A DNA stretch of 27,265 nt, from assembly GCA_019634245.1 (NCBI GenBank), contig JAHQVR010000042.1, forward strand, positions 1 through 27,265, in the 5' to 3' direction. The translations under genes were made by a program, and so were the position numbers. Shown piece after piece: positions 787 to 17,033 of the stretch. Numbering within the stretch: the stretch's first letter is position 1; every line of letters starts with the position of its first letter. The notes below the pieces were generated by a model that saw only the letters and a list, made by a program, of their open reading frames with translations, was not told the DNA's origin and ran no database searches. The DNA comes from Gammaproteobacteria bacterium. GTDB lineage: Bacteria; Pseudomonadota; Gammaproteobacteria; Granulosicoccales; Granulosicoccaceae.

Positions 787-3700
787 AATATCAATTGTTA
801 AGTTGGAAAAATCATCATTAGTGTTAGCGTCCACAATCGGAATAATATTGTCCCCAATGGGCTCATTACCTGTGGGCGCAGCACCGGGTAACGGGATTTC
901 AGCGTCAACTGTTATTTTGTCTGTCAAAATCCCATTGGCAAGTACTGAGCCTGTCACCATACCGTTATGATCGACGTCATGATTCACATCGGTATTGGCG
1001 TTAGCTGCACCCACCGCGACGGTCCATCCCATCAACGGATTACCCGGAGCAAACCAGGTTGCGGGAATCTGTACAAAGTAGTCACCGGGCTCAAGCTCAT
1101 CAAATAGATAGGTTCCATCCACGGTCTGTGTTGATTCGACCAAATCCCCGGTATCGTAATCCCTGAGTTCCACCGCTAGACCATCGGGAGCGAGTAAATC
1201 AATACCATCGTCGAATGCTCCGTTGGAATTGATATCTATAAAGATTAGATCCCCGATGGAATGTCCTGCAATGACTATGATCGATCGATTGGATTTAATG
1301 TACTGCGTTGCCGGCAGATCAATTGAGTCCGTACCGAACAAATTGACGTAGCGATCACCAGAGCGATTACCCGATGCCTGCAAGGTATAACTCAATTTAA
1401 TACCCTGCCGTGGATTGCCGTTTACCTCTAGTTCGTAGTTCGATACATGTTTTATCGCCGTTACACTGCTAAAATCTGCGGGACAGCTCATACCGCTTTC
1501 ATCAGGTATAAAAACTAAACCGTCCCAATGGCACCAATCACTAGCGTTTGAATCTGGATCGTGATTAATCGTCGTTGGTACATCAGCAGAATAGGAAATC
1601 AATCCGATTTGTGAAAAGGGATCGGACCCCGTTGGAACTGACCCATCCATCCAAGTCTCTGTGGCAGGCCCACTTAACGTTAAACTACCCGTAAAGTTCG
1701 ATGCAGGAGATCTTGCTGCCAATCCGGCAGAATCACCGTTGTAGGGTAAAACGTTGATCACCACTGGGTTTGCCACGGTGGAGGCTTCGGAAAAGTTAGA
1801 CCATGTCAGTGTGTGGTGTTGGCTGTCTCCCGCCCGATCAACCGGTACATCGACACTTGCTGCTGATTGAATGCTACCTGCTTGACCCAAAGTCACCGTT
1901 TGTTGAGTGGGCGTTGACACCACAGCGTTGTCCGCAGACATATATGCGCTATTGACCGCAGCGGTACCCGCCGGTGCTGTCGCATCCGTTATCGTGCAAT
2001 AGATAATCGGCGCATGAACTTGAGTGGAGTCAAGGTTGCCCAGTGGCCACTTCAGCGTAGTTTGACCCGCACTTGGGGTGTTATACAAAATCTGGGTGGG
2101 CGCAACCGCTCCAGGTTCTGCTAATGTGCAAGCCTGATCGTACGTTAATTCTTCTGGCAGTACATCAACCACTTCAGCGTTAATCGCAGTACTACCCTGT
2201 GATAATACTGATGACACCACAGGTTCCAACTGCCACACAACAGGATTTCCGGCCAGCGTGGACGTGGTTGTGCCCGCTGCTGCAAAAGGCGTTACCGTAG
2301 ATTTTGCAACGTCAACAGTCACGCGCGTCAACGACATACGATCGCCATGCGATGATGTTGACTCAGGCGAAGGCATGTAATTGTTGGTAAATCCTCCCGG
2401 CCGGAACTCATCACTTCGCCAATTACCAAACGATGGCATAACGGTTCCCACTGGTATCGGCGTACCGTCGTATGGCCCGCCATAGAAAACATCACGCGCT
2501 TGAACAGGTGTCATCAATCGTAGGTTGTGACCGGCATGAAGCTGAACCGTCGGGGAGGCCTTAACAACTCGTACGGCATTGACATTGTCACGCCCAATTA
2601 CGTTCAGGTCTGTGTTCCAGCTTACTGCCGGATCATCACAACGGAACGTTCGCATCTCATTCCAATCACCTTCATACCGCCCTGACATAGGATTAAAATC
2701 AACCGCGCCATCATTGTTGCTATCCAATGGATCGACTGCAGCGTAATTAATGCTCGCGTATTCAATTTGCCAATCGGATGTGTTTCCACCACCACCAGCC
2801 ACAACAAAGGCATCTTTACCTGCACTACCCCCAACACTGGCTCGATCCGACAAGCGCTGAGTCGAGTTATCAAAGGCAGTACACAATTGTGTGTTCGATA
2901 GGGAGACGCTACCCTGGTTCACGACATAGCTCATATACGGCCATGAGACAGTCGGTTCTACCAATCCTTCGCCGGTGTGATAGGAAGAGAGATAGGGAGC
3001 GTAAATTACCGACCCACCATCATTCGTTCGGCTCAGTGTGCGATGATTAAAACCACCGGTCGCTCTGATTTCAATAGTTAAGGGGCCAGAACAGTTGTTG
3101 CTGGCACTACCATCGGGCATCGCAGTTCCGTTATATCCAGGCTCTAGCCCACCCCCATAATTAGACACTGAGTAGTTATCTACAGGATCGAAATCGTTAA
3201 AACAGTTTGTTAGGTTGAGTGAACCACTCGAAGGCGTTGGGTTTTCACGATCAATTTCTGAGAAAGGCACAAAAATTTGAACTCTATAGGCCATCGCAAA
3301 ATAAGGCCCCGCCGCTAACGACGAATTGTTTATCGTCTGTGTGGGGTAGCGGGTTCCGCGCGTATCAACATTGTTCGCTGTTAGTGTCCAGCCATTGGTC
3401 GTGTCCCCTGAAATAGCACAACTTCCCGAATCTACGACGTGCTCTCCGAGTGGATCGTTTGGCCGAATCGACTCATTACCCCATACGGTGTTTCCCCAGC
3501 CCGAAGGGTTGGGTATACATTGCACAATAGAATACTCAAACGGAAACGGTGTAACCCCGTCGCTTTCAACTGCAGTTAGTAGATTATTGAAAGAAAAACT
3601 ATCTGTCAGCGCAGAAACGCCTTTACCTGCGCGATCAACATCGGCTGACAAGTGGACCGTTGTCCACAAATAGTATCCAAGTTCAGGGCCTCTTCCGGTA

Positions 3701-4425
3701 CCAACATCCTTAGTAGTAACGCCGCCACGATAGATACTCCGGCGATCTCCAATCAAATCCCAGGCTGGGGCCGATGAGATAACATAGGTTTGTGGATCAT
3801 GGTAGATAACATCAGATACGATTTTTGCGCCTAACGCATCCAGGCCATACACCTTTTGATGAGATGTGAAGGTTGCCCCATCCGCCGAATCCGCCATGGG
3901 TCGAATAGGTACGGAGAATGACTTTTGATCCCCGTTAGCCATAGCACCAAGATTACACAGTAGCGTTATTGAACCATCGCCATTGTTGATAACTGAGGAA
4001 GTAGGATTGGTTCCCCCTGGACCCTGCGGTGGCGCCAAACAGATTGTCGGCATCTCATCAAACTGCACATTCGCATCTGCGCCGGGTATCAGCGTTTGTT
4101 CTAAAATCACAGACGCTACCGGCGGGTCTCCCACTGGTATATTGGACATCGAAATCGACCAAAAATGATTTTGCAAATCCGCCGTGCGGATTCGTGCATC
4201 GTTTGCGCCGCAGTCTTCCCCAGAATTGTTGCAACTAGCAGGTAACGCAAATGGCTCTGAACCTGTTGTTACACCCTCACCAAACGGCCCCAGACTCAGA
4301 GATTGAGCCAATGTCGACGGTGACCACATCACCAACGACAGCAGAACAGCAATCCGGGGATTAAACAGTGAAAAACCATCTGCTAAGCAGGCGCAAAAAT
4401 GTTCACTTACCGCTCTTAAATTCAT
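1..4425 (-). CDS. Very large secreted surface protein with SdrD-B-like domain and calcium-binding-type repeats, C-terminus outside window
   Basis: The minus strand stays open for 1475 codons from an ATG at 4425 to the left edge, with no stop, so the C-terminus is missing. The N-terminus has a long n-region, then a hydrophobic core (IAVLLSLVMW) and a likely signal-peptidase site after STLA. Residues about 45-1055 are Ser/Thr/Asn/Gly-rich with scattered cysteines, typical of exported beta-sandwich proteins, but I recognise no named domain there. Residues about 1057-1118 read as an SdrD-B-like/Cna-B-type domain (GDLIFIDINSNGAFDDG ... YLFDELEPGDYFVQIP). From about residue 1216 to the edge there are DxDxDGxxD repeats. 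A second in-frame ATG at 4437 is possible; 4425 is preferred because a GGA lies upstream. The gene starts 54 bp after the OmpA-family gene and is probably co-transcribed with it. A role in adhesion or the cell surface is inferred. Confidence 0.85.
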   Translation of the reverse strand, partial: MNLRAVSEHFCACLADGFSLFNPRIAVLLSLVMWSPSTLAQSLSLGPFGEGVTTGSEPFALPASCNNSGEDCGANDARIRTADLQNHFWSISMSNIPVGDPPVASVILEQTLIPGADANVQFDEMPTICLAPPQGPGGTNPTSSVINNGDGSITLLCNLGAMANGDQKSFSVPIRPMADSADGATFTSHQKVYGLDALGAKIVSDVIYHDPQTYVISSAPAWDLIGDRRSIYRGGVTTKDVGTGRGPELGYYLWTTVHLSADVDRAGKGVSALTDSFSFNNLLTAVESDGVTPFPFEYSIVQCIPNPSGWGNTVWGNESIRPNDPLGEHVVDSGSCAISGDTTNGWTLTANNVDTRGTRYPTQTINNSSLAAGPYFAMAYRVQIFVPFSEIDRENPTPSSGSLNLTNCFNDFDPVDNYSVSNYGGGLEPGYNGTAMPDGSASNNCSGPLTIEIRATGGFNHRTLSRTNDGGSVIYAPYLSSYHTGEGLVEPTVSWPYMSYVVNQGSVSLSNTQLCTAFDNSTQRLSDRASVGGSAGKDAFVVAGGGGNTSDWQIEYASINYAAVDPLDSNNDGAVDFNPMSGRYEGDWNEMRTFRCDDPAVSWNTDLNVIGRDNVNAVRVVKASPTVQLHAGHNLRLMTPVQARDVFYGGPYDGTPIPVGTVMPSFGNWRSDEFRPGGFTNNYMPSPESTSSHGDRMSLTRVTVDVAKSTVTPFAAAGTTTSTLAGNPVVWQLEPVVSSVLSQGSTAINAEVVDVLPEELTYDQACTLAEPGAVAPTQILYNTPSAGQTTLKWPLGNLDSTQVHAPIIYCTITDATAPAGTAAVNSAYMSADNAVVSTPTQQTVTLGQAGSIQSAASVDVPVDRAGDSQHHTLTWSNFSEASTVANPVVINVLPYNGDSAGLAARSPASNFTGSLTLSGPATETWMDGSVPTGSDPFSQIGLISYSADVPTTINHDPDSNASDWCHWDGLVFIPDESGMSCPADFSSVTAIKHVSNYELEVNGNPRQGIKLSYTLQASGNRSGDRYVNLFGTDSIDLPATQYIKSNRSIIVIAGHSIGDLIFIDINSNGAFDDGIDLLAPDGLAVELRDYDTGDLVESTQTVDGTYLFDELEPGDYFVQIPATWFAPGNPLMGWTVAVGAANANTDVNHDVDHNGMVTGSVLANGILTDKITVDAEIPLPGAAPTGNEPIGDNIIPIVDANTNDDFSNLTIDIGIISADTDQDGIPDAYEFGPGGVSALADTDGDGIADYLDTDTDGDGVPDAIEFGGNLSGFHDSDGDGIPDLRDLDSDNDGIPDSVEAPNSGLDSDNDGIDDQYDVDATGGSDLDGNGIDDAVEAGGLLDTDGDGVADVHDLDSDNDGLTDTKEAGGLDSDGDGLIDGFTDGNGDGLADSAGNDPLPVADIDGDGAADYLDIDSDNDGINDTVEAGGLDADNDGEIDGFSDSDGDGLDDLTAATPLAVPNTDGNGAPNHADVD

Positions 4426-4440
4426 GAGTAATTCCATTTG

Positions 4441-4479: not shown

Positions 4480-5616
4480 TTAGTAAGTAATCGCGAGCTC
4501 TACCCGTCGATTAGCGGCACGCCCCTGGGCATGTGCATTCGAATCGAGTGGTTTCAACTCACCGTAAGCCAGCCGCTGTAGCTTGTTGGTATCAATGCCT
4601 TCAGCCTCAAATATCTCAGCCACCGTACCTACACGCTGACGGGACAGACGCAGGTTGTATCGAGCGGGCCCAACATCGTCGGTATGACCGGAGATCACGA
4701 TATGGCGCGGGTTACAGCGACGAAGCGATTCAGCCACGCTCGACAACCTAACTTTTGCTGAATCTGTTAGCACTGCAGAGTCTGTGTGAAAGGTAATACC
4801 GGATATGACACCCTGCAGAGAACTACAATCTCTTGCGACCTGAATAGCAGGTACTGGCACAAGTACCGCGGGAGACTTAGGGGAATATTCAGATAGTGGA
4901 TTATTAACTTTTTGGCGTTTACCCGACGGTCGATAGATCAAACCCAATTGAGCATATTGGACGTCTTTGTCAAAGGCGATGTAATCTGCGCGCAAGCCTA
5001 AACCGATGCGAGTCATATACTCCAAACCCAAACCAAACAGCAAATGGGTTGAACTCACCTGTTCATACAGCACCGGACCAATGGTATCGTTGGTTAATTG
5101 TCCAAAACCTATTCGTCCATAACCGGAAAATCCCTGGCGCAGAAAGTTATGTCGATTTTTACCGGCATAAAAAAGAGCACTTGCCGCATTTATTTCGTAA
5201 CCGATGTGGCCTTGTGGAGATAAGTCTGCGGTACCTAGGGAGGAATGATGAAGCTCTATAGATAATTGGCGGCTGAGATCGGCTCCAAGAGTGAACTGCG
5301 AACCACCGTTCGTAGAATTATCAACGTTCCAATTCGGCACCTCACTGGTATCTGGATTGAGTTCGCTGACACCTAAACCAATGCCTGCGTAAACACCGCG
5401 TTGAAGTTTTCGGTCAGGCGTCGTGGTATTTTTGGGTTGGGTAATGCGATGGTTTACGGTCGCATCCGATTCCGGTACGGGAGGCGCGCTCAGATTGTCT
5501 GGTTGCCTGGCACAGCTGGCCATGGCAGAACCCAGCATCAGTAGGCAGATAATTTGACGCCCAAAACGGCACGGTCTGCTTGTTATTGTCGGTGATTCCA
5601 AGCGCCGAAATCCCAT
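4480..5616 (-). CDS. OmpA-family outer-membrane protein with C-terminal peptidoglycan-binding domain
   Basis: 378 aa. The N-terminus has a basic region, a hydrophobic stretch (IICLLMLGSAMA) and a lipobox-like MASC with Cys35, suggesting a lipoprotein, although Met at -3 is not ideal. Residues about 70-235 alternate like a small outer-membrane beta-barrel (YAGIGLGVSELNP, GYGRIGFGQL, LLFGLGLEYMTRIGLGLRADY). Residues 263-378 are an OmpA C-terminal domain: ITFHTDSAVL, ISGHTDDVG, the YNLRLSRQRV helix and GRAANRRVEL. This domain normally binds the diaminopimelate of peptidoglycan. It probably heads an operon with the giant secreted protein 54 bp downstream and may anchor or help display it; that partnership is inferred. 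No clear ribosome binding site precedes the ATG, so the start is less certain than the domain call. Confidence 0.88.
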   Translation of the reverse strand: MGFRRLESPTITSRPCRFGRQIICLLMLGSAMASCARQPDNLSAPPVPESDATVNHRITQPKNTTTPDRKLQRGVYAGIGLGVSELNPDTSEVPNWNVDNSTNGGSQFTLGADLSRQLSIELHHSSLGTADLSPQGHIGYEINAASALFYAGKNRHNFLRQGFSGYGRIGFGQLTNDTIGPVLYEQVSSTHLLFGLGLEYMTRIGLGLRADYIAFDKDVQYAQLGLIYRPSGKRQKVNNPLSEYSPKSPAVLVPVPAIQVARDCSSLQGVISGITFHTDSAVLTDSAKVRLSSVAESLRRCNPRHIVISGHTDDVGPARYNLRLSRQRVGTVAEIFEAEGIDTNKLQRLAYGELKPLDSNAHAQGRAANRRVELAITY

Positions 5617-6087: not shown

Positions 6088-6438
6088 ATGAGTTCCATCG
6101 ACGTAAACCTGCTTGGGCAACTCAAAGAGCTCATCGGTGGCGATCAATCTGAACTGAACGAACTAATTAATACGTTTTTAAGTGAAGCCAATGACATTGT
6201 TTCTGATATGAATTCATCCTTGGATACGCAAAATCTTGAGGTACTGAGACGGTCGGGACATTCACTGAAATCCAGTGCACAAGATTTTGGAGCAACCGAA
6301 CTCTCTGCCCTTTCAGCATCTCTCGAATCTGCCTGTCGTAGTAGCTGGCCTGACGACAGCAACCTGCAAGTTGAACGCATTCAATCTGAGCTGGTCTTGG
6401 CTCAGCAAGAACTCCAATCATACCTTCAAAATAACTAA
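6088..6438 (+). CDS. Stand-alone HPt (histidine phosphotransfer) domain protein
   Basis: 116 aa from the ATG at 6088; a TTG two codons upstream is a weaker alternative. The whole protein is one HPt helical bundle. The phosphoacceptor is His58 in RRSGHSLKSSAQDFGA, followed by the usual ELSALSASLE helix. HPt proteins shuttle phosphate between the receiver of a hybrid kinase and a response regulator. The hybrid kinase at 7987-10809 has two receivers but no HPt of its own, and a receiver-transporter fusion starts 16 bp downstream, so this is the natural middle carrier of a local phosphorelay. Co-transcription with the fusion gene is likely from the short gap. The partner assignment is inferred from position and domain content. 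Confidence 0.9.
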   Translation: MSSIDVNLLGQLKELIGGDQSELNELINTFLSEANDIVSDMNSSLDTQNLEVLRRSGHSLKSSAQDFGATELSALSASLESACRSSWPDDSNLQVERIQSELVLAQQELQSYLQNN

Positions 6439-6454
6439 CCCTTAATTTTCGAGC

Positions 6455-7990
6455 GTGTCCTCATTGGAACAGAGTGAAGCCAAGGAACTTGTCCTAATTG
6501 TCGATGATCAGGCTACTCATCGGCAGAAACTTAGACTTGCCATTGAGAACTTAGGCTACAAAACCGTTCTGGCTGTGGATGGAAATGACGCCTTACACAA
6601 GCTCCGCACATCAGATATCGATTTGGTTCTACTCGATATCATCATGCCCGATGTGGACGGATTTGATGTCATGGAATTTATGCAGCGAGATAAGAAACTT
6701 CGAGAAATTCCAGTAATCGTAATTTCAGCACTCGATTCCGAAATGGATAGTGTTGTTCGTGCCATAGAGTTTGGGGCACGAGATTTTCTACCTAAAAACT
6801 TCGATCCTATCTTTCTACGCGCTCGAGTTGAAACATCTCTCGAATCGAAACGAAATCGAGATAGAGAAATAGAGCATTTGCAGCAAGTGGAACGTCTTAC
6901 TGACGCAGCAGCAGTGCTTGAAAAGCACAACGTCAATCCATCACGACTGCAGCTCGTAGATATGCGTGAGCGAGAAGATGCTTTGGGGAAACTGGCCCGT
7001 GTCTTCACAGATATGGCCAGCCAAGTCTATGAGCGTGAACAGCGTCTGCGCCAACAAGTTAGGACATTACGCGGGATAGGACTTTTGTTGGCCGTGGGAG
7101 CCGTCTATGGGCTTGGCATACCAATCTCAAGAATCGCCTCAGAACAATCCAGCAACGCCTTTGGTATTGCACTATGGGTCAATGTAATAAGTGCTTTTAT
7201 CTGCTTATCAATCTCTTTCTACCGAGGCAGAGTCCCTAAACTCAACAAAGATACACTGATTCTTTTTGGATTTTGGGGATGTTTTGGAACACTGTTTGGC
7301 GAAGTAGTGCTATTCAAAGTAGCTGCGCATGTCGAAGCTTCGTTAATTGCGTTAATACTGGTCGCGGAAGGTTTTATAGTGTTTGCTTTCGCAGCCGCGA
7401 TGCGTATAGAGAAAGCGAGTATTCGTAGACTGTTAGGCTTTGCAGTTGGTTTTGTCGGCATGTTGCTCGTAATCTTTGCCGCCCGCAATATCGAGGGAAA
7501 TTCTTTAGGTATCTGGGTACTAGCAGGACTGGTTATTCCTACCGCCTACGCTTGCCGAACCATACTTCTTACACTAAAGTTCACAAACGATTTGGATCTG
7601 ATGGGCGCTGTGGGCTTTTCATGTGTTTCCGGTTCCATCATTGTAATGCCGTTCGTCATTGCAACCGGGGACTGGGTATCACTGAACTCGATCGGAAACC
7701 TCGGATCAAACAGTCTGCTATTTGCCATTCTATTACTCGCCATTATCACGGCCTCCGGTTCCGCCTTAAGAGCAACCCTAATCAAATCCACCGGAGCAGT
7801 TTTTGCCAGCCAAGCCAGTTTGGTGACAACGCTTGCCGGCATCATTTGGAGCATGTTGTTGTTGGGGGAACAGCTGCCGCCGATTGGGTGGCTGGCGTTG
7901 ATATTCATGTTAGGTGGGGCGTACCTAATTGGACCAAAAGAGGAAGCCGAAGAAGTGGACCCTCTCACCAAGTTAGATTATGAACTTTAG
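6455..7990 (+). CDS. Response-regulator receiver domain fused to a ten-helix EamA/DMT-type transporter
   Basis: 511 aa from a GTG start; no clear ribosome binding site, so translation may be coupled to the HPt gene 16 bp upstream. Residues about 12-130 are a CheY-like receiver with acidic Asp17/Asp18, phosphoacceptor Asp61 in LVLLDIIMPDVDG, Ser91 and Lys114. Residues about 135-205 form a charged, probably coiled-coil linker (LARVFTDMASQVYEREQRL) like those following receivers in other regulators. Residues about 207-493 are hydrophobic and divide into about ten membrane helices in two halves, as in EamA/drug-metabolite transporters (helices near 207, 237, 266, 290, 327, 352, 383, 420, 446, 476). 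Transporters of this fold move small metabolites across the inner membrane; the substrate here cannot be read. Receiver outputs are usually DNA-binding or enzymatic, so direct attachment to a transporter is unusual. The stop codon overlaps that of the convergent kinase gene. Confidence 0.88.
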   Translation: MSSLEQSEAKELVLIVDDQATHRQKLRLAIENLGYKTVLAVDGNDALHKLRTSDIDLVLLDIIMPDVDGFDVMEFMQRDKKLREIPVIVISALDSEMDSVVRAIEFGARDFLPKNFDPIFLRARVETSLESKRNRDREIEHLQQVERLTDAAAVLEKHNVNPSRLQLVDMREREDALGKLARVFTDMASQVYEREQRLRQQVRTLRGIGLLLAVGAVYGLGIPISRIASEQSSNAFGIALWVNVISAFICLSISFYRGRVPKLNKDTLILFGFWGCFGTLFGEVVLFKVAAHVEASLIALILVAEGFIVFAFAAAMRIEKASIRRLLGFAVGFVGMLLVIFAARNIEGNSLGIWVLAGLVIPTAYACRTILLTLKFTNDLDLMGAVGFSCVSGSIIVMPFVIATGDWVSLNSIGNLGSNSLLFAILLLAIITASGSALRATLIKSTGAVFASQASLVTTLAGIIWSMLLLGEQLPPIGWLALIFMLGGAYLIGPKEEAEEVDPLTKLDYEL

Positions 7991-10809
7991 TGTTTGGCGC
8001 TACGACGTGATTGCCAAGCCGCCTCGAGCCCCGCAACTAACTCATTAATTCGCAGAGGCTTACTGATATAACCGTCCATACCAGCTTCTAAATAACGCTC
8101 TCTATCCCCTTCCATAGCATTCGCTGTAGTCGCGATTATAAAAGGTGTTTGAGAAACACTTTCTATCTGACGGATTTGTCGAGTCGCTTCAACGCCATCA
8201 AGCTCCGGCATTTCAATATCCATGAGAATTAAATCGTAAGAATTAAGATGCTGTTGATCCACTGCATCGACACCGTTCACCGCAATATCAGCGCTATAGC
8301 CCAAACGCTTTAATACCAAGGACCCGAGCTTTTGATTGGTTTTGTTGTCATCCACTAAAAGTATTGACAATGGGAATTGTATCGCCACATCAGCATCGTA
8401 CTGCTCTTTTTCAGAACTGTCAGTGCGTATATAGGTTCGAGTTTCCTTAGTAAAAAGATCCAGCAAATTATCCAGTAATGCGCTCGGTTTAATAGGTTTG
8501 GACAATTTAGCGTGGAACGCAATCCTATTCAATCGATCCACCTCTACATCCGATAAAGAAGTCAATGAACTCAATAGTATTAGGGGTAATTTTTCCGCCG
8601 TTCGATATGCGCGAATGTGCTCTGCAAGTTCAATTCCATCCATGTCAGGCATACTCATATCTAATATAGCCACATCATACTCTCTGCCTTCCTTTATCCA
8701 CCGCAAAGCTTCCAAAGGAGAGCTCGTTTGTTCTGACAACATGGACCATTCGGCAGATTGCAGCTCTAATATACGACGATTGGTATGATTGTCATCCACG
8801 ATGAGTAACTTCTTGTTTCGTAAATCTGGTTTTGCTTCGTGGAGTTCAACTCTACGTTTAATGTTCGATACAGGCACTGTGATGGTGAAATGAAACGTTG
8901 TGCCGTCCCCTAGCTCACTCTCAACCCAGATGTGGCCATTCATCATTTGCACCAGGTTTTTGCTGATGGCCAGACCTAGCCCTGTACCTCCATACAATCG
9001 GGTTGTTGATGCATCCACCTGGGAAAACGACTCGAACAACACATGTAGTTTATCTTCGGGAATTCCAATACCACTATCAGCCACCGAGAAGTGTAAAGCG
9101 ATAGAACCTTCCGGCACCCCTTCCCGCAACACATTACTTGGCACAGTTCCACTTTCTAAATCTAAGCGCCTAACCCGCAAAACAATCTCACCTTGACTAG
9201 TAAACTTTACTGCATTGTTCAACAGATTGAGCAATATCTGTCGCAAGCGATTGCCATCACATACAACGCCTTCGGGTGTGTCACGATCAATAAGGTAGGC
9301 AAGGTTTAGCTTCTTTTGATCAACGCTGGCTGTAATTAAGTCCAAGGCACTTTCGACACATTCGCGTAAATCCAAAGCTTGCGGATCAAGATCGAGCTTG
9401 CCAGCTTCTATTTTTGAAAAATCGAGAACATCATTAATAACCACTAATAAAGCTTCTGCACTATCGGTTATAGTTTCACAGAAATCTCTCTGTTCAGTAT
9501 TCAATTCTGTATTTAGCAGAAGGTTACTCATTCCAATGATGCCGTTCATGGGAGTTCGAATTTCATGGCTCATGGTCGCCAAAAATTTGCTTTTTGCTTG
9601 AGTTGCATCCTCTGCCAAATCACGAGATCGGGTAATAAGCGCTTCGTTCTCTTTTAATTCTGTGATATCTGTATATATGGCGACGGTTCCACCGTTAGAA
9701 AGTTTACTCTCCTCTATCCTCACCCAGCGCCCATCACTGCGTCGCTGTACAAACGGTTCACCAGGGTTTTGATGAGCTTTTACACGTTCACGAATCCATT
9801 CCTCCTCTCTGCCTTTTGCATTTTCGATCAGACCGCTGAGAGCCGAAGACCTCATCAGTTCCTCAAAATTTGCACCCGGTTTAATGTCATCAGACATTGA
9901 TGAATGCAAACCTTCTTTGTAGTTGTCATTACACAACACCAAATTGTCTTCAGCGTCGTACAACACAAACCCTTCGGAAATACTCGCAAGCGCAGCGTTT
10001 AGTTGGTTCTGTGTCTGCAGTAGATTTTCATCGGCTCGGTTTTTCTCATCGGCTAATTTATCCCTTTCTATTAGGCTGTCTCTAAACAATGACAATGTTT
10101 CAGTCATTGAGCCAATTTCATCTTCACCAGCTTCAGGAATTTCCGTGGTCAGATTACCTCGGGTTATTTCCGACATAGACGCAACCAGACCTTGCAAGGG
10201 CTTTCGAATTGAATGCAACACAAGCCAAGTCAATCCGATACCCAGTAAACTCACTAGGCCAATAATCCATGCAGACACAGTAACGGACTGCTTGGCTCTC
10301 GAGACCGCTTGTCCGCTTGTTTCTAGAGCTCGACTCTCAAGATCGTCAACAAGATACGCAAGCTGGGTGTCTATCTCCATAATATTGATCCGAGCTTCGG
10401 ACATTAAGGTGTTACCCAGAACGCGTTGCCCTTCTGAATAGGCATCCACAGCATCCATGGATGTATTTTGCATGGACTCGAGCTCAGTTTGAATGCCTGT
10501 CACAATGTCTGGATAATGTGGTTGCAGCTCAACCAACGCTGCAGAGAGCCTGGTGGCGGCGGCTTCTGCTTCTAGTTCAGAGCGCATCAACAGACTCACT
10601 GCTAAGTCCGTTTGCCAGTATTTGTAATCACCAAAGGCTCGATTTGCTTGATTCGCGGTGGTCAGCACCGACACAAGTTCAGATTCCTCTACGAGCGTAT
10701 TGGCTCCACTAGAGATGCTCCGATTGAGATACAGATTTGACGCGATCAGCGCTCCAAGCAGCAGAGCGGCAAGTAGAACTAGGCGAGTGACAATGGAGAG
10801 TTTGTTCAA
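7987..10809 (-). CDS. Membrane hybrid histidine kinase (HAMP-PAS-HisKA-HATPase-REC-REC)
   Basis: 940 aa. A membrane helix at about 7-27, a mostly helical periplasmic region at 30-175 and a second helix at about 178-199 are followed by HAMP (about 200-250), PAS (about 270-385), HisKA with His415 in ATMSHEIRTPMNG, and a HATPase with N-box LLNNAVKF (529-536), DSGIGIPE (578-585) and GGTGLGLAIS (607-616). Receiver 1 (about 666-787) has Asp717 in AILDMSMPDMDG; receiver 2 (about 814-930) has Asp864 in ILMDIEMPELDG. There is no HPt, which fits the separate HPt gene at 6088. The start is a TTG 6 bp after the stop of the haem-sensor gene; no nearby downstream ATG keeps the first membrane helix. Operon position suggests it senses through, or with, that haem protein. 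Confidence 0.92.
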   Translation of the reverse strand: MNKLSIVTRLVLLAALLLGALIASNLYLNRSISSGANTLVEESELVSVLTTANQANRAFGDYKYWQTDLAVSLLMRSELEAEAAATRLSAALVELQPHYPDIVTGIQTELESMQNTSMDAVDAYSEGQRVLGNTLMSEARINIMEIDTQLAYLVDDLESRALETSGQAVSRAKQSVTVSAWIIGLVSLLGIGLTWLVLHSIRKPLQGLVASMSEITRGNLTTEIPEAGEDEIGSMTETLSLFRDSLIERDKLADEKNRADENLLQTQNQLNAALASISEGFVLYDAEDNLVLCNDNYKEGLHSSMSDDIKPGANFEELMRSSALSGLIENAKGREEEWIRERVKAHQNPGEPFVQRRSDGRWVRIEESKLSNGGTVAIYTDITELKENEALITRSRDLAEDATQAKSKFLATMSHEIRTPMNGIIGMSNLLLNTELNTEQRDFCETITDSAEALLVVINDVLDFSKIEAGKLDLDPQALDLRECVESALDLITASVDQKKLNLAYLIDRDTPEGVVCDGNRLRQILLNLLNNAVKFTSQGEIVLRVRRLDLESGTVPSNVLREGVPEGSIALHFSVADSGIGIPEDKLHVLFESFSQVDASTTRLYGGTGLGLAISKNLVQMMNGHIWVESELGDGTTFHFTITVPVSNIKRRVELHEAKPDLRNKKLLIVDDNHTNRRILELQSAEWSMLSEQTSSPLEALRWIKEGREYDVAILDMSMPDMDGIELAEHIRAYRTAEKLPLILLSSLTSLSDVEVDRLNRIAFHAKLSKPIKPSALLDNLLDLFTKETRTYIRTDSSEKEQYDADVAIQFPLSILLVDDNKTNQKLGSLVLKRLGYSADIAVNGVDAVDQQHLNSYDLILMDIEMPELDGVEATRQIRQIESVSQTPFIIATTANAMEGDRERYLEAGMDGYISKPLRINELVAGLEAAWQSRRSAKH

Positions 10810-10815
10810 TGCTAA

Positions 10816-11601
10816 CTACTTAAATAAAGCGATACTAATTGACCCACCTAAATCACCTTGCTTGCCGCCTTCTTTCGGATAACCAGTGATGTCCATTGAA
10901 CCCTTCGGGTCTCCATGACAACTCAAACAAGCTTCTCCGTAATACTCTGGAACCATAACGCGATAGGCTGGCACACCTGCTAGCTCGGTCAATTCAGCAT
11001 ACAACTCACCTTCATTCCAACTCTCGCTTTGAAAACGCTGCTCAATAACGCCACGTTCCCAAATATCTGGACGAGACTTTCGATTTCGAACTAACTCCAT
11101 GGGTGCGGTAACTTTGACTTTAGCCGCTCGGCCGGCTTTTTCGCCAAATCGTTCATTCACAAGCCTGGTAAACACTGCCGGTACGAACCCCTTGAAACCT
11201 ACCCCTGAACGATTGATTACAGGCTGATTTTCGTTAATCACCTCTCGAATCGCATCCAGCTGCGCTTGAATCAAGTTATCCTGACGCGACCCATCGGCTA
11301 AATCGAGTAAATCAGCTTTGCCAGAAGACGCAAGCCTTGACTGTACTAATTCAACCACTCGTTCGCCGTCGAGATTCTTAGCATCATCTGACGGCTCGTT
11401 TATCAACGGTTGTTGATGTGCGATTTCACTTCTTGCGGCTCGTAACACATCGGCAAGAGCCAAAGCGATCTCTAGGTCTTCTTCCTCGGAACTATGAATC
11501 TGAGAACTGATGGCTAGCAAGCTCGCCAATAAGCAGCATTTTGTGGAGATGCACAATAGCCTTATTCCTTGAATTTTATACAGTGTATCGCGGGCAATCA
11601 T
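10816..11601 (-). CDS. DUF3365/Tll0287-like c-type haem sensor protein, exported
   Basis: 261 aa from the ATG at 11601, chosen because a GGAG lies 6 nt upstream; an in-frame ATG at 11658 gives 280 aa with a poorer site. A hydrophobic stretch near residues 22-34 (CCLLASLLAIS) looks like a signal peptide or membrane anchor. The C-terminal two thirds match the DUF3365/Tll0287-like fold: FVPAVFTRLVNERFGE, AAKVKVTAPMELVRN, then CLSCHGDPKG, a CxxCH covalent haem site at Cys225-His229. Such domains are periplasmic haem sensors, often built into the N-terminus of kinases or chemoreceptors; here the domain is a separate protein with the kinase gene 6 bp downstream. It probably supplies a redox, gas or small-ligand signal to that kinase. 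Ligand and direct contact are inferred. Confidence 0.85.
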   Translation of the reverse strand: MIARDTLYKIQGIRLLCISTKCCLLASLLAISSQIHSSEEEDLEIALALADVLRAARSEIAHQQPLINEPSDDAKNLDGERVVELVQSRLASSGKADLLDLADGSRQDNLIQAQLDAIREVINENQPVINRSGVGFKGFVPAVFTRLVNERFGEKAGRAAKVKVTAPMELVRNRKSRPDIWERGVIEQRFQSESWNEGELYAELTELAGVPAYRVMVPEYYGEACLSCHGDPKGSMDITGYPKEGGKQGDLGGSISIALFK

Positions 11602-11705
11602 GTCCAACTCCATAGGGTCAAGCCTGTAAGAGTAGCGCAGTTTATCTTCCTTAATCATCCTGCATCTAGTAAGCTTGATGTCTTTCTGCGACGCTCTCTG
11701 GCACC

Positions 11706-11849: not shown

Positions 11850-12209
11850 TTATTCCATGGCAGAACCATGAGTTTCTCGGGTGGGAATATCGTCAAGATT
11901 CACGTTCTGCAGGCAATGAATGTTGACACCAAAAAAATCCGGTGTGACTCTTTTTCGGTGAAACGGATAGATGCCACAAATGCGACAAAAGAAGTGCCGC
12001 GCGACGTGAGTATGAAAACGATATTCAACCAAATCGTTTTCTCCGCTAATCAGCCTAAACTGCGACTCATGCACTTTCACCATTGTCGCTGCCCTACGCT
12101 TGCACATTGAGCAGTCACAAGTGGTAAGTTCGACAAAATTACTGTTGATTTCGAACTGCACAGCACCACAATGGCAACATCCGTGGCATCGCGTGTGCGC
12201 TTCTTCCAT
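11850..12209 (-). CDS. GFA/CENP-V-family zinc-binding protein
   Basis: 119 aa from the ATG at 12209, which has GGAAGAG 6 nt upstream; an ATG at 12239 would add ten residues with a poorer site. The family's zinc ligands are clear: a CHGCCHCGAVQFEI start, TTCDCSMCKRR, and HFFCRICGIYPFH near the C-terminus. The family is named after glutathione-dependent formaldehyde-activating enzyme, but most members have no proven reaction, so an S-(hydroxymethyl)glutathione synthase role should not be assumed. It stands alone, divergent from the ABC transporter operon. Length is typical for the family. Confidence 0.88.
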   Translation of the reverse strand: MEEAHTRCHGCCHCGAVQFEINSNFVELTTCDCSMCKRRAATMVKVHESQFRLISGENDLVEYRFHTHVARHFFCRICGIYPFHRKRVTPDFFGVNIHCLQNVNLDDIPTRETHGSAME

Positions 12210-12450
12210 CTTAGACTCTTCCAATAGACTCGAGGGCATGCCTTATCCTAACGGTGTCCCAGCGAATTCGCTATATTTATGTCTATCTGCGCTTGTCCTG
12301 TATTTCTGACATCAGCTATTGCCTTTGACCATCCATTAGGTTAGCGTGTAACCGCACTGTATTGCAGAAAAACGATCGGCCTTGGCAGCTGCGTTAACGG
12401 CCAAAAATCCAGACTATCTGTAGTACTAATAACAAATTAGGAGAACATCA

Positions 12451-13290
12451 ATGCGAATTAAAAATGTACTGTTTTCGGGGCTTATGGCCTCAGCACTAAC
12501 AGTCGCGACGGGCAGTGCTAGCGCTGCCTGCACCAATGACACATGGAACAAGGTCATGGATCGAGGGACGTTAGTCGTAGGTGTTAAGGCCGACTACAAA
12601 CCTTGGGGATACCGCGACACAAGCGGTGCCATTGTGGGTATGGAAATCGACATAGCCCAAGCGGTTGCAGATGCAATGAATGTCGAACTGGAAACTGTCT
12701 CCGTTCAGTCCTCGAACCGTATGCAGTTTCTGGAGCAAGGCAAAATCGATTTAATGATTGCCACGATGTCAGATCGTGCAGACCGGCGTGAGATCGTTGG
12801 TATCACGCAACCAAACTACTACACATCGGGCACAAACATAATGGCGCCCAAAGCTTTAGGTTTTAAAAACTGGGAAGATTTACGCGGAAAACCTGTGTGT
12901 GGAAAGCAAGGAGCCTTCTACAATGAAGTGGTTACCGAACGCTATGGCGTCGAAATTATCGCCTTCACGGGTAATGCAGAAGCTAAGCAAGCGCTCAGAG
13001 ATAAGAAATGTGTAGCGTGGGTCTATGACGATTCTTCCATTGGCTCAGATTTATCGTCTGGTGAGTTCGCTGATTTTGAAATGCCTCTAGCTTCCGAAGA
13101 CGACAACCCTTGGGCTTTAGCAGTACCACTAGCAGAAAAAGACTGCGTATTTGGAAATTTTATGTCAGGCCTGATATTCAACATGCATCAGTCTGGTCAA
13201 TTAATCGAACTTGAAAAAAAATGGGGCATTCAAGCTACGCAGTATCTAGCCGACAAAAATGCCGCCTACGCAGATTGGTTGGCTGAGTAA
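12451..13290 (+). CDS. Periplasmic amino-acid-binding protein of an ABC transporter (SBP_bac_3 family)
   Basis: 279 aa with a strong ribosome binding site (AGGAGA, 8 nt before the ATG). The signal peptide runs to about residue 26 (LMASALTVATGSASA, cleavage before ACT). The mature protein is a family 3 solute-binding protein: GTLVVGVKADYKPWGYRD, GMEIDIAQAVADAMNVELE, QGKIDLMIATMSDRADRRE, and the C-terminal lobe FGNFMSGLIFNMHQSGQ. It captures a polar amino acid or related molecule in the periplasm and delivers it to the permeases at 13372 and 14130. The substrate is not readable; the Asp- and Asn-rich pocket regions fit this broad class. A hairpin terminator directly follows, a common way to make more binding protein than membrane subunits. 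Confidence 0.92.
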   Translation: MRIKNVLFSGLMASALTVATGSASAACTNDTWNKVMDRGTLVVGVKADYKPWGYRDTSGAIVGMEIDIAQAVADAMNVELETVSVQSSNRMQFLEQGKIDLMIATMSDRADRREIVGITQPNYYTSGTNIMAPKALGFKNWEDLRGKPVCGKQGAFYNEVVTERYGVEIIAFTGNAEAKQALRDKKCVAWVYDDSSIGSDLSSGEFADFEMPLASEDDNPWALAVPLAEKDCVFGNFMSGLIFNMHQSGQLIELEKKWGIQATQYLADKNAAYADWLAE

Positions 13291-13314
13291 CTCAACAGTA
13301 TTAACCAGCAAGAG

Positions 13315-13344
13315 AAGAAAGGCTGCCATGCAGCCTTTCTTTTC
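13315..13344 (+). terminator. Rho-independent terminator/attenuator between binding protein and permease genes
   Basis: AAGAAAGGCTGC (13315-13326) pairs perfectly with GCAGCCTTTCTT (13330-13341) around CAT, and the sequence continues TTTCC, giving a strong stem followed by a T-rich run. It lies 24 bp after the binding-protein stop and 27 bp before the first permease. As the operon continues on the same strand, it probably acts as a partial terminator that lowers expression of the membrane components relative to the binding protein. Confidence 0.8.
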
Positions 13345-13371
13345 CTACAAACGCGTTCTGAATAAGCCCCA

Positions 13372-14130
13372 ATGTTAGAACTGTTTACACAGTTTTTCAT
13401 CGAGCTAGCTGATGAGCATCCTCGTTGGAACTTTATTTTTTTTCACGACCCCAGACAATGGGCGCGAATTGTCAAAGGGTTGCAGTACACCTTAATTTTA
13501 TCTTTGGCCTGTCTTTTATTGTCCGTAATTATTGGTGTTGTGGGCGCATGGCTACAGAATTCTCCCTCTATGCTTGTGCGAAAGCTCGTACAAGGCTATA
13601 TCCAGTTTTTTAGAAACACTCCACCCTTCGTACAATTGCTGTTCTTTTACTTCGCGCTAGGTCAGTTCACACCTGCGGTGACAGGACCAGATGGTTGGAC
13701 TGAGGTACCCATAATATCCAACGTTGGCTGGGCCATTATTTCCCTATCTTTTTTTGCCGGTGCGTTCAATGTGGAAATATTTCGAGCCGGAATAGAGGCT
13801 GTTCCCGATTCCACTCAAGAAGCAGCGAGTGCACTGGGATTTTCTCGCTTACAAATCTATTTGGAAGTCGTGTTACCACTGGCCTTTCGTGTTTCATTAC
13901 CAGCATTGAATAACAACCTTGTCAATCTGGTAAAAACCACCACTCAGGCAATCGGCATTGCGGTGCCTGAACTGTTGTATCAATGTGTGAGTATTTGGAA
14001 TGATTATCCAAGTGCACAGTACCCAACCATGTTGCTATTGTTTGTCTCCTTTATCGTGCTGGTAGGTGTTTTAGTGTTCGGTATGAATAGATGGGAAAAT
14101 GCTATGCGCATACCTGGGTATGGCCGCTAG
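13372..14130 (+). CDS. Amino-acid ABC transporter permease (HisM/GltJ type)
   Basis: 252 aa integral membrane subunit. Membrane helices are visible near residues 35-58 (YTLILSLACLLLSVIIGVVG), 80-96 (FVQLLFFYFALG), 118-135 and 222-243 (LFVSFIVLVGVLVFGMN). The ATPase-contacting EAA loop reads EAASALGFSRLQIYLEVVLP. The family forms heterodimers with a second permease, here the next gene, whose start overlaps this stop by one base. No strong ribosome binding site precedes the ATG. Confidence 0.92.
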   Translation: MLELFTQFFIELADEHPRWNFIFFHDPRQWARIVKGLQYTLILSLACLLLSVIIGVVGAWLQNSPSMLVRKLVQGYIQFFRNTPPFVQLLFFYFALGQFTPAVTGPDGWTEVPIISNVGWAIISLSFFAGAFNVEIFRAGIEAVPDSTQEAASALGFSRLQIYLEVVLPLAFRVSLPALNNNLVNLVKTTTQAIGIAVPELLYQCVSIWNDYPSAQYPTMLLLFVSFIVLVGVLVFGMNRWENAMRIPGYGR

Positions 14131-15029
14131 TGAAGGCTCAAGGCAACATTCCAGGTGTCAGTACGGGTGGAACTACCGACCTGCCAGTATTAAAGCCTTT
14201 TACAGCCCAAGCTGCTGGAGATGTTAACGACCTTTTATTCTCTCGCTGGCTTGCCGATTTGCCCAAACGATTTTGGCTGTTTCTCGCTATTATTATTCTT
14301 GCCTGGCCAAGCATAGGGTCAGCTGCCAGTGGCTACACGATGGGCCAAGCATTCGGTGCTTTGTGGAGGTGGATACCTTTTATTGTTAAAGACGGATTTT
14401 TCTTTAACATCATTATTTCGTTTTTCGCTATGCTCATCGGCACGCTAGCCGGCGTGGTCTTAGGGTTGATGCAAATATCACCGCTCAAGTCTATTCGATA
14501 CCCTGCAAAAGTTCTCACGCAAACCTTTCGCAATTCTCCTTGGCTTGTATTGCTCTTCATCGTTCTGCTGGCGTTGCCGTTTGAAGTGGAGATTGCAGGA
14601 GAAATAATTCGAATCCCCGATTGGATGAAAGCGGTCTTTGGCCTTTGCCTACCTATCATGGCGAATATTTCAGAGGTCGTTCGTGGTGCTGTGAACTCCG
14701 TTCCGAGCGGACAATGGGAAGCTGCAGAATCCCTTGCCTATACCCGCACTCAGACGTTGTGGCAAATCATATTGCCACAGTGCTTCAAACGTATGATTCC
14801 TCCTTGGATGAATTGGTATGCCATATTAACCATGGCTACCCCCTTGTGTTCGCTGCTTGGGGTGGAGGAACTTATCACCTTAAGTAGACAAGCCATTGAA
14901 GCCGAAAACAATCGACCAGAACTTCTTGTTCCGTTTTACGGTTTCGCCCTATTTATATTCTTTGCTTATTGTTATCCGATTGCACGGGCTACTCTAGCGT
15001 TAGAGAAGCGCTACTCAGTCATCCAGTAG
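14130..15029 (+). CDS. Amino-acid ABC transporter permease, second subunit (GltK type)
   Basis: 299 aa from a GTG overlapping the previous stop (TAGTG), which suggests translational coupling; an upstream ATG at 14091 would overlap the preceding gene by 40 bp. A hydrophilic N-terminal leader of about 40 residues precedes a helix (FWLFLAIIILAWPSI), then the core helices IIISFFAMLIGTLAGVVLGL and SPWLVLLFIVLLALPF. The EAA loop is EAAESLAYTRTQTLWQIILP, followed by the helix of LLVPFYGFALFIFFAYCY. It pairs with the permease at 13372 to form the inner-membrane channel. Confidence 0.9.
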   Translation: MKAQGNIPGVSTGGTTDLPVLKPFTAQAAGDVNDLLFSRWLADLPKRFWLFLAIIILAWPSIGSAASGYTMGQAFGALWRWIPFIVKDGFFFNIIISFFAMLIGTLAGVVLGLMQISPLKSIRYPAKVLTQTFRNSPWLVLLFIVLLALPFEVEIAGEIIRIPDWMKAVFGLCLPIMANISEVVRGAVNSVPSGQWEAAESLAYTRTQTLWQIILPQCFKRMIPPWMNWYAILTMATPLCSLLGVEELITLSRQAIEAENNRPELLVPFYGFALFIFFAYCYPIARATLALEKRYSVIQ

Positions 15030-15037
15030 AGCAGCAA

Positions 15038-15793
15038 ATGAACAGTGAAAAATGGGACCCATCCCAACCGATTGTATCCATAAAAGATGTGCATAAATCT
15101 TTTGGTGACCTAGAGGTTCTAAAAGGTGTATCCATCGATGTAATGAAAGGTGAAGTGATTTGTATTATCGGCCCTTCAGGGTCAGGTAAATCCACTTTAA
15201 TCCGGTGCATAAACGCCCTGAACGACATACAGTCCGGTTCGATTACGGTTGAAGGTCAACCGGTTCATGGCCCAAAACTCAATAAATTGGAACTACGAAA
15301 AAAAGTCGGCATGGTATTTCAGCAGTACAATCTATTTCCACACAAAACTGCACTTGAAAACGTCATGATGGCGCCAATCAAAGTGCTTAAAGAACCCAAA
15401 GCCGATGTTGAGAAACGAAGCCGCGCATTGATCAAAAAAGTGAGGCTAGAGGGTAAGGAAAATAGCTACCCAGGCGAGCTGTCGGGCGGACAACAACAAC
15501 GAGTTGCCATTGCTCGGTCACTTGCCATGAAACCAGATGTCATGCTCTTTGACGAAGTTACTGCAGCTTTGGACCCAGAGACCGTTAAAGAGGTTTTAGT
15601 CACTATAAAAACTCTCGCCGAAGAGGGCATGACTTGCATACTCGTGACTCATGAAATGGGCTTTGCACGCGAGATAGCCGATCACATATATTTCACCGAC
15701 CGTGGCATTATTGTTGAGCATGGCCCGCCAGCCACTTTTTTCGATAGTGCTAAGGATGAACGAACCAAAGAATTTTTAAGCCAGATACTTTAG
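15038..15793 (+). CDS. Polar amino-acid ABC transporter ATP-binding protein (GlnQ/GltL type)
   Basis: 251 aa from the ATG at 15038, 8 bp after the permease stop; an in-frame ATG at 14969 lies inside the permease gene and is less likely. All ATPase motifs are present: Walker A GPSGSGKST, Q-loop VFQQYNLFP, signature LSGGQQQRVAIARSLAMKP, Walker B VMLFDEVTAALDP and switch histidine VTHEM. It energises uptake by the permease pair. The Walker B continuation is EVTAALDP rather than EPTSALDP, a known variant in this subfamily. Confidence 0.95.
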   Translation: MNSEKWDPSQPIVSIKDVHKSFGDLEVLKGVSIDVMKGEVICIIGPSGSGKSTLIRCINALNDIQSGSITVEGQPVHGPKLNKLELRKKVGMVFQQYNLFPHKTALENVMMAPIKVLKEPKADVEKRSRALIKKVRLEGKENSYPGELSGGQQQRVAIARSLAMKPDVMLFDEVTAALDPETVKEVLVTIKTLAEEGMTCILVTHEMGFAREIADHIYFTDRGIIVEHGPPATFFDSAKDERTKEFLSQIL

Positions 15794-15830
15794 TAGATTT
15801 GCGGGTAGTGAACATCGATTTAGGTGAGTT

Positions 15831-17033
15831 ATGAAACCCTTTGAAGGCATACGCATTCTGGATCTTACCCATGTGCTTGCAGGTCCATTCTCAACGTACC
15901 AGTTAGCTGTTCTAGGGGCTGACGTTATTAAAATCGAATCACCCGATAACCCGGATATGACTCGACAAGAGGGTGTTCTACCCGAAGAAAACCAAAACCA
16001 ATACGGAACGTATTTCCAAGGCCAAAACGCTGGCAAGCGTGCCATCACATTGAATTTGAAAACCTCTCAGGGCAAAGCCATTCTGTGGCGCTTGATCAAG
16101 ACCGCCGATGTACTGGTTCAAAACTATGCTGCTAGTAGCTTAGATAGATTAGGCTTTTCCTACCAGGAAGTGGAAAAGAAAAATCCCTCTATTATCTATT
16201 GTTCGATTTCAGGTTATGGGAAAACCGGTCCAAAAGCTAACCACCCAGCCTATGACGTGGTTATTCAGGCGTTCTCTGGGTTGATGGCTGCGAACGGTGA
16301 AGAGAACGCGCCACCCGTTCGGGTCGGACCACCGTTGGTGGACTATGGCACCGGTGCGCAGGCAGCCTTGGCGATTAGCGCTGCCCTATTTCAACGGCAC
16401 CAAACCAAGCGCGGTCAGTACATTGATGTATCCATGTTGGACTCGGCGCTTATGTTAATGACCGCCCACGTTAAAGACACACTGGCCACTGGTGTGGCAC
16501 CCCGTGCTCACGGCAATGCGCACCCGCTCTATGCAGGCTATGCCACTTACCCCACTCAAGAGGGTGTCATCATGGTCGGTGCCTGGACCAATAGGCAGTT
16601 GGCAGCTCTACTTAGAACCCTGGGGAATGAAAAGCGTGCTGAGGAGGTAGCCAATACCGCTCGTTCAGAAATACATTTTGAAAGAGATTCAGACAGAGAG
16701 TTTATCGCAGATCAACTTCTCACTAAGTCGGCTGCTGAATGGGAGGATTTACTGAACGAAGCACATGTTCCCGCGGCGAAGGTTCGCACTATCGATGAGG
16801 CCATCGCTACAGAACAAGTGCTCTCGCGCAAAGTGATTCAGCAGCCCTCAAATCATCCGGGTAACAGCACCCCTTCTTCTGCTTGCACTGTGGCAGGTTT
16901 TTCATACCTACACGGCTCCCCTTCCGTAGAAAGGCCGCCCCCTCAAGTCGGGGAGCATACGGATGAGGTGCTGAGTGAAATTGGCTACTCGATTGAGGAG
17001 ATAAACAACCTTCGCCATGCGAAGGTTGTTTGA
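15831..17033 (+). CDS. Class III (CaiB/BaiF, formyl-CoA-transferase-like) CoA-transferase
   Basis: 400 aa, with AGGTGA 6 nt before the ATG. The family fold is clear: FEGIRILDLTHVLAGPF, LGADVIKIESPDNPD, NAGKRAITLNLKT, YDVVIQAFSGLMAANG, and the likely catalytic Asp171 in PLVDYGTGAQAAL (equivalent to Asp169 of formyl-CoA transferase, by my alignment). These enzymes move CoA between carboxylic acids through an acyl-aspartyl anhydride. The substrates cannot be read. It starts 37 bp after the ABC ATPase gene on the same strand, so it may act on an acid taken up by that transporter; this is inferred. A perfect 13-bp hairpin forms the last codons of the gene. Confidence 0.93.
   Translation: MKPFEGIRILDLTHVLAGPFSTYQLAVLGADVIKIESPDNPDMTRQEGVLPEENQNQYGTYFQGQNAGKRAITLNLKTSQGKAILWRLIKTADVLVQNYAASSLDRLGFSYQEVEKKNPSIIYCSISGYGKTGPKANHPAYDVVIQAFSGLMAANGEENAPPVRVGPPLVDYGTGAQAALAISAALFQRHQTKRGQYIDVSMLDSALMLMTAHVKDTLATGVAPRAHGNAHPLYAGYATYPTQEGVIMVGAWTNRQLAALLRTLGNEKRAEEVANTARSEIHFERDSDREFIADQLLTKSAAEWEDLLNEAHVPAAKVRTIDEAIATEQVLSRKVIQQPSNHPGNSTPSSACTVAGFSYLHGSPSVERPPPQVGEHTDEVLSEIGYSIEEINNLRHAKVV
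17003..17031. terminator. Perfect 13-bp inverted repeat overlapping the end of the CoA-transferase gene
   Basis: AAACAACCTTCGC (17003-17015) and GCGAAGGTTGTTT (17019-17031) pair without a mismatch around CAT. The right arm runs into the TGA stop. There is no long U-tract on the plus strand, while the minus strand continues TTTATC, so it may be a weak or bidirectional terminator, or an mRNA-stabilising 3' hairpin, between the converging CoA-transferase and DUF1330 genes. Confidence 0.6.

Follow-up and report, generated by a model that had tools for sequence, protein, structure and literature searches.

The stretch of DNA considered here, called the window throughout (27,265 nucleotides of contig JAHQVR010000042.1, assembly GCA_019634245.1, from a gammaproteobacterium of the Granulosicoccaceae), carries at 6088-11658 four adjacent genes encoding an HPt phosphotransfer protein (+), a receiver-EamA fusion (+), a hybrid histidine kinase (-), and a c-haem protein (-). 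That the four form one system, as a sequence-only reading of the window had proposed, is well supported by the recurrence of their neighbourhood in relatives and by the co-occurrence of the parts, and on balance we think it probable that they make up a multistep phosphorelay, the terminal response regulator of which is itself a membrane transporter.

Relay parts and the receiver-transporter fusion

The features of the locus are as follows.

6088..6438, + strand: HPt phosphotransfer protein (Pfam PF01627, E 7.7e-14), with the phospho-accepting His58 at 6259-6261
6455..7990, + strand: fusion of receiver, helical linker, and EamA/DMT transporter, 511 amino acids (aa) from a GTG start (Pfam, full-length homologues, AlphaFold 2 [AF2] model)
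6482..6847, + strand: receiver domain of the fusion, with the acceptor Asp at 6635-6637
6806..7078, + strand: two-helix linker of the fusion (AF2 helices; weakly HAMP-like in relatives)
7079..7945, + strand: EamA/DMT transporter domain of the fusion with 10 transmembrane (TM) helices (Pfam EamA, model)
7987..10809, - strand: hybrid histidine kinase comprising an N-terminal membrane/periplasmic region, HAMP, PAS_7, HisKA, HATPase_c, and two receivers (Pfam; membrane segments by eye)
10210..10809, - strand: N-terminal sensor region of the kinase, its first 200 aa, common to other haem-linked kinases by sequence comparison
10816..11658, - strand: stand-alone c-haem Cache protein (Tll0287/DUF3365; PF11845), with CLSCH at 10915-10929, secreted by eye (signal-peptide-like N terminus)

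The HPt and fusion genes are 16 bp apart and the haem and kinase genes 6 bp apart; the two pairs are convergent, with the fusion and kinase genes overlapping at their stop codons (7987-7990). All four genes and their key residues lie where the sequence-only reading had placed them, as re-checked with Pfam and by residue position. The assignment of the relay parts, as judged from the sequence, is strong. The hybrid kinase combines a HisKA His (His415, at 9565-9567), an HATPase, and receiver Asp residues (Asp717 of receiver 1 at 8659-8661 and Asp864 of receiver 2 at 8218-8220), and the HPt has its conserved His, which is the composition of a multistep phosphorelay. The catalytic residues of the kinase are conserved in all 13 aligned kinases and the phospho-accepting His in all 10 aligned HPts, the window being included in both sets.

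Phosphorelays of the LuxQ-LuxU-LuxO type join a hybrid kinase to a free HPt in a His-Asp-His-Asp scheme. The window resembles them in its hybrid kinase, free HPt, and terminal receiver, and LuxU is the top NCBIfam match of the HPt (E 5.8e-10, under the model cut-off); unlike in that type, however, the terminal regulator is a 10-TM transporter, in which no DNA-binding or enzymatic domain was matched by Pfam. In TorT-TorS, a secreted partner protein is coupled to a sensor kinase. The window likewise has a secreted-looking partner and a hybrid kinase, for which TorS is the top-scoring model (E 1.1e-139, under the model cut-off), but its partner belongs to the c-haem Cache proteins, its HPt is a free protein, its putative output is a transporter, and Pfam gave no match to the TorS sensor domain in the kinase at E ≤ 1; such a domain is carried by the kinase of an alphaproteobacterial fusion locus, L131 (27.5 bits against a cut-off of 27). 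A related relay with a cyclase output was seen in genome G378, on a contig other than that of its haem gene, where the genes for a hybrid kinase that contains its own HPt, a single receiver, and a receiver-cyclase are arranged consecutively (L147:420-6422).

Pfam matches to the fusion comprise Response_reg (E 5.8e-25) and two EamA stretches (E 5e-17). Its receiver has the acidic pair D14 and D15, the acceptor D58, and the switch residue K111 in the numbering of P0001, which starts at 6464; counted from the GTG start, the acceptor is Asp61. The acceptor Asp is conserved in 14/14 fusion copies (window included), and the switch Lys is conserved in 13/14. The AF2 model (predicted local distance difference test score [pLDDT] of 87) has linker helices at 115-154 and 173-228, the second of which is continuous with TM1, and both the EamA repeats and the DMT fold of the transporter domain were confirmed by Pfam and the model. 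The linker is strongly conserved among homologues, and the EamA core is conserved across 43 aligned fusions with the transporter residues retained. A degenerate transporter is unsupported, as these residues are kept in comparison with 11 free-standing relatives (picked by likeness via own profiles).

The fusion family comprises 567 proteins at E ≤ 1e-3, and receiver and EamA domains are both present in 119 of the best 120 of these 567 (precomputed Pfam). A scan of genome contigs was dominated by ordinary receivers and returned a full-length fusion in 1 (L003) of 80 retained loci. Class-wide full-alignment searches found full-length fusions in 0/369 and 1/289 (the centre itself), which are weak negatives because at most four to five candidates per genome were scored; a search with the linker and EamA alignment found the fusion in 2/297 genomes of the order of G001, centre included (up to nine candidates scored). 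No fusion was found in a search of viral contigs. One receiver-EamA gene, at L131:9309-10911, is apparently interrupted by a frameshift.

A close parallel to such a fusion is found in the SLC5/STAC sensor kinases CbrA and CrbS; according to two reports, the transporter of CbrA is joined to signalling domains and the protein works as both sensor kinase and transporter (PMC7096432, PMC13022988). The covalent link between a transporter domain and two-component signalling domains is thus common to both; however, the SLC5 transporter is attached to the kinase, on the input side, whereas no SLC5 domain is fused to a kinase in the window, and its EamA/DMT transporter is attached to the receiver, on the output side.

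Recurrence and co-occurrence of the four genes

The surroundings of 15 fusion copies were read, namely the window, L001 (with a near-copy, L002), L003, L131, L120-L122, two copies in L123, L124-L128, and L139, whose contig ends after the first 153 aa of the fusion. An HPt gene adjoins 11/15 copies, in gamma- and alphaproteobacteria alike; it is absent beside three (L126-L128), and L139 is undecidable because its contig ends first. All four genes are present together in the window and in L120-L124, and L139 has the haem gene, the kinase, and the start of the fusion. The three orphan fusions sit in G663 and G689, each of which also has a full set, and in G698, to which the haem-linked locus L139, cut before any HPt, belongs. 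Relative to the window, the fusion is inverted in L121 and L122, and in the alphaproteobacterial loci L001, L003, and L131 the kinase, HPt, and fusion are co-directional in that order. Gene order therefore varies between loci and the flanks largely differ, yet the adjacency persists. Shared flanks are exceptions: those of L001 and L002 are alike, ABC ATPases recur in the flanks of several loci, one flank gene is common to L122 and L123, one to L124 and L128, and two to L128 and L131, and two flank genes of L131 have a relative in L003. Because the neighbourhood recurs in relatives with changed order and mostly different flanks, the four genes belong together, and chance adjacency is ruled out by this recurrence together with the co-occurrence described below. 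The neighbourhood search that the sequence-only reading had called for thus recovered the full set in other genomes, and its worry that homologues of the fusion might never lie beside an HPt, kinase, or haem gene was not borne out.

Co-occurrence was assessed in a 48-genome order, that of G261, the genome with the best PurH match (733 bits at 66% identity; the runner-up has 712 bits, likewise at 66%; 232 of 274 genomes gave a match). This order contains 10 full-length fusions at E ≤ 1e-30 in six genomes, and three further genomes match the EamA part only; the full-length match of G698 is its orphan copy, the copy at the locus being cut. The haem gene, the kinase sensor region, and the fusion were each found in 6/48 genomes, and these are the same six. 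All six haem genes of the order lie beside a kinase and a fusion (in one case, the contig ends 153 aa into the fusion). With random placement, the chance of two six-genome sets agreeing is 1/C(48,6) = 8e-8, kinship ignored, which is not a clean probability because the six genomes are kin.

In the protein collection, a haem homologue was found on a contig of exactly the same size for 20/29 near fusion clusters versus 0/40 distant ones (contigs of ≥7 kb). The counts were 20/52 and 1/68 with no size limit, 20/36 and 1/45 at 5 kb, and 17/24 and 0/32 at 10 kb. The haem list used here is the best 120 of 2022 matches, so that a haem neighbour of a distant fusion could rank below it; the 20 matches include the window itself, five of the contigs were also read directly, and 15 were not. 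One near miss, P0046 (14413 bases), has the size of the contig of L120, which does hold a haem gene. The HPt search yielded 18 proteins, 7 of which are on a contig of the same size as one of the 52 near fusion clusters. In a tree of 30 fusions, the haem-linked ones form one group (support, 91/87), and linkage to kinase and HPt occurs on both sides of the midpoint root.

Other genes around these loci were recorded as well. A single gene separates the haem gene of the four-gene locus L122 from two ordinary EamA transporter genes (L122:8213-10309). In Mesorhizobium plasmids, a hydroxyacid-dehydrogenase gene follows the fusion (L001:7658-8683; likewise beside the fusion in L002), and a relative of it occurs in L125, some 5 kb from the fusion there (L125:16018-16992). 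The window itself begins with a long open frame on the - strand (1-4437), cut at the window end, the product of which is secreted-looking with many C-terminal calcium-binding-like repeats of the D-x-D-x-D-G type (by eye). By Pfam, the flanking genes encode an OmpA-family protein (4480-5616, -) and a GFA-family (glutathione-dependent formaldehyde-activating) protein (11850-12239, -). Farther on, an amino-acid-type ABC transporter operon (binding protein, two permeases, and ATPase) and then a CoA-transferase-like gene occupy 12451-17033 (+; by eye); only the ATPase of this operon, which is of a common type, has relatives in the 13 compared loci.

The haem protein and variation in the putative inputs

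The haem protein matches PF11845 (Tll0287-like; E 4.9e-18, 66.4 bits versus a cut-off of 24.1), its CxxCH motif being CLSCH, and its predicted fold is a Cache like that of Tll0287, which was found by the fold search; a sequence search of solved structures gave no convincing match. One homologue (P0190) is labelled Granulosicoccus sp., and with the PurH match this makes a Granulosicoccus-like gammaproteobacterium a likely host. The Tll0287/DUF3365 proteins were recently described as a c-haem Cache family, sCache_heme. The window protein is like this family in its family match, CxxCH, and predicted fold, and it stands alone as redox-type members do; unlike them, its clade lacks any Cys beyond the CxxCH in the mature part (28/28 aligned relatives) and is genetically tied to a kinase. 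Members of the NO-sensor type are characterized by the lack of an axial Cys and by slow release of nitric oxide.

In all ten genomes of relatives that were read (six of the order and four alphaproteobacterial), the haem gene adjoins a gene with the same sensor region. In the alphaproteobacterial loci L144 and L145, the haem gene and a kinase with this sensor region are followed by a receiver-cyclase. These receiver-guanylate cyclase regulators have the same input pair as the window and a last protein composed of a receiver and an output domain, but the output domain here is a class III cyclase, there is an additional small receiver gene, and no HPt was found by similarity. A haem input is supported by the joint occurrence of the haem gene and the kinase sensor region, which persists where the output differs. 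The haem homologue at L144:4679-5644 has RLTCH in place of CxxCH, so that either the first haem-binding Cys is lost or the sequence is in error. At L148:9477-12072, the gene immediately before a chemoreceptor with the sensor region of the window kinase encodes a haem Cache protein, and two further chemoreceptors with this region (L160:8114-10398 and L161:7836-9845) are preceded by a protein of about 150 aa that is secreted-looking by eye and has no Pfam match.

We rejected the possibility that the haem gene is obligatory at every fusion locus. At L125, L131, L003, and L001, the N terminus of the kinase is unrelated (phmmer E 0.33-0.68 in a 13-member set; L001 was compared whole) and no neighbouring haem gene was found, the L003 kinase being open at the contig start with its upstream gene outside the data; no haem match was found in G001, the genome of L003, among the 8 of 24 candidates scored. 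Upstream of the kinase, two of the fusion loci that lack a haem gene carry a gene for a solute-binding protein (in one case with a match slightly under the Pfam cut-off), and one of these kinases has a TorS sensor domain. With a haem gene in some fusion loci and a solute-binding protein in others, the inputs appear to vary while the transporter output remains constant. The sequence-only reading therefore holds for the four-gene system and for a haem-borne signal insofar as the haem gene and the sensor region travel together; it needs amending in two respects, as the haem gene is not a fixed part, four fusion loci having a kinase with an unrelated N terminus, and three fusion copies stand alone.

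Proposed mechanism, alternatives, and significance

His-Asp-His-Asp transfer is established relay chemistry. In the mechanism that we infer, the secreted c-haem Cache protein would switch state in the periplasm, through either a redox change or the uptake of a gaseous ligand such as nitric oxide, and would then act on the periplasmic region of the hybrid kinase as its input. The kinase would autophosphorylate at His415, and the phosphoryl group would pass via the kinase receivers to His58 of the free HPt and from there to Asp61 of the fusion receiver, an order of transfer between proteins that is presumed from the relay scheme. The receiver may then turn or tighten the two-helix linker, the second helix of which runs on into TM1, and this movement would switch the DMT transporter between more active and less active states, such that phosphorylation gates transport.

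Several observations weigh against this mechanism. The six genomes that hold the parts belong to one order, so that part of the co-occurrence is shared descent, and the support of the haem-linked fusion group is under the tool's mark for firm support. Neither HPt nor kinase was found near the fusion in L126-L128, where one side extends only about 1.5 kb (L126) or 2.6 kb (L127), and in one orphan fusion the switch Lys is changed (K111 to E). No HAMP match (PF00672) above the Pfam cut-off was found in the linker, the best being 22.8 bits against 25, in a distant relative, and three of the six tested linkers, including that of the window, gave no HAMP match; the likeness to HAMP rests on the modelled helix-connector-helix shape. 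As to the input, the tested stand-alone haem Cache protein of P. putida appears redox-like, with fast nitric oxide release even without its axial Cys, and Cys removal did not make it hold nitric oxide (PMC12889525); in addition, the chemoreceptors of L160 and L161 lack a haem gene within the surrounding 17-18 kb that was read.

Three other explanations were weighed. The fusion could be a transceptor operating in reverse, in which EamA senses a substrate or the membrane state and modulates the phosphorylation of its own receiver, serving as a second input or feedback point. CbrA, a sensor kinase and transporter in one, is a precedent (PMC7096432, PMC13022988), and the conserved transporter residues would fit ligand binding without transport equally well; we nevertheless regard this as unlikely, for the last receiver protein behind the alphaproteobacterial haem and kinase pair (L144, L145) has an enzymatic output, which suggests that EamA stands in the output position, and no other receiver or relay-output gene was found by similarity in the window locus, L120-L122, or L124, L123 having only a second fusion. 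Receivers without an active output are also known as phosphate sinks. A membrane receiver of this kind would drain phosphoryl groups from the HPt and tune a regulator encoded elsewhere, with transport incidental. Several genomes have extra fusion copies, and in L123 the HPt has a further, diverged receiver-EamA gene on its opposite side (L123:11311-13473), suggesting that one HPt may serve two fusions; a bare sink, however, needs neither the retained EamA core nor the strongly conserved linker, which makes this explanation improbable. Finally, a cluster of merely inherited synteny, in which the kinase and haem protein act on an unlinked regulator and the fusion is driven by different kinases, would accommodate the opposite strands of the two gene pairs in the window and the three orphan fusions, but the co-directional kinase, HPt, and fusion of alphaproteobacteria and an adjacency that survives inversions and changed flanks leave it little credit.

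The relay, EamA, and haem Cache parts are all of known kinds. No description of a receiver-EamA fusion, a receiver-transporter output, or modular inputs was found among the top-ranked matches in the open-licence literature, outside which most subscription journals lie; in one report, EamA and response regulators are named only as separate items (PMC12487129).

Our preferred reading, a relay ending in a transporter, would define a new response-regulator class with transport as its output, in which a phosphorelay switches a DMT transporter through a built-on receiver, without new transcription and with interchangeable periplasmic inputs (c-haem Cache or solute-binding protein); we hold this class to be about as probable as its absence. 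Most two-component systems act through transcription, second messengers, or protein-protein contacts, and gating, if demonstrated, would add a new class to the outputs of response regulators. A receiver joined to a transporter via a conserved helical linker would give a direct case of phosphorylation-controlled membrane transport in bacteria. If the reading is true, a clade of stand-alone haem Cache proteins would serve kinases and chemoreceptors as detachable sensor subunits instead of acting as redox carriers, and the recurring pair of haem gene and kinase would provide a concrete handle on the function of the stand-alone c-haem Cache proteins of this clade.

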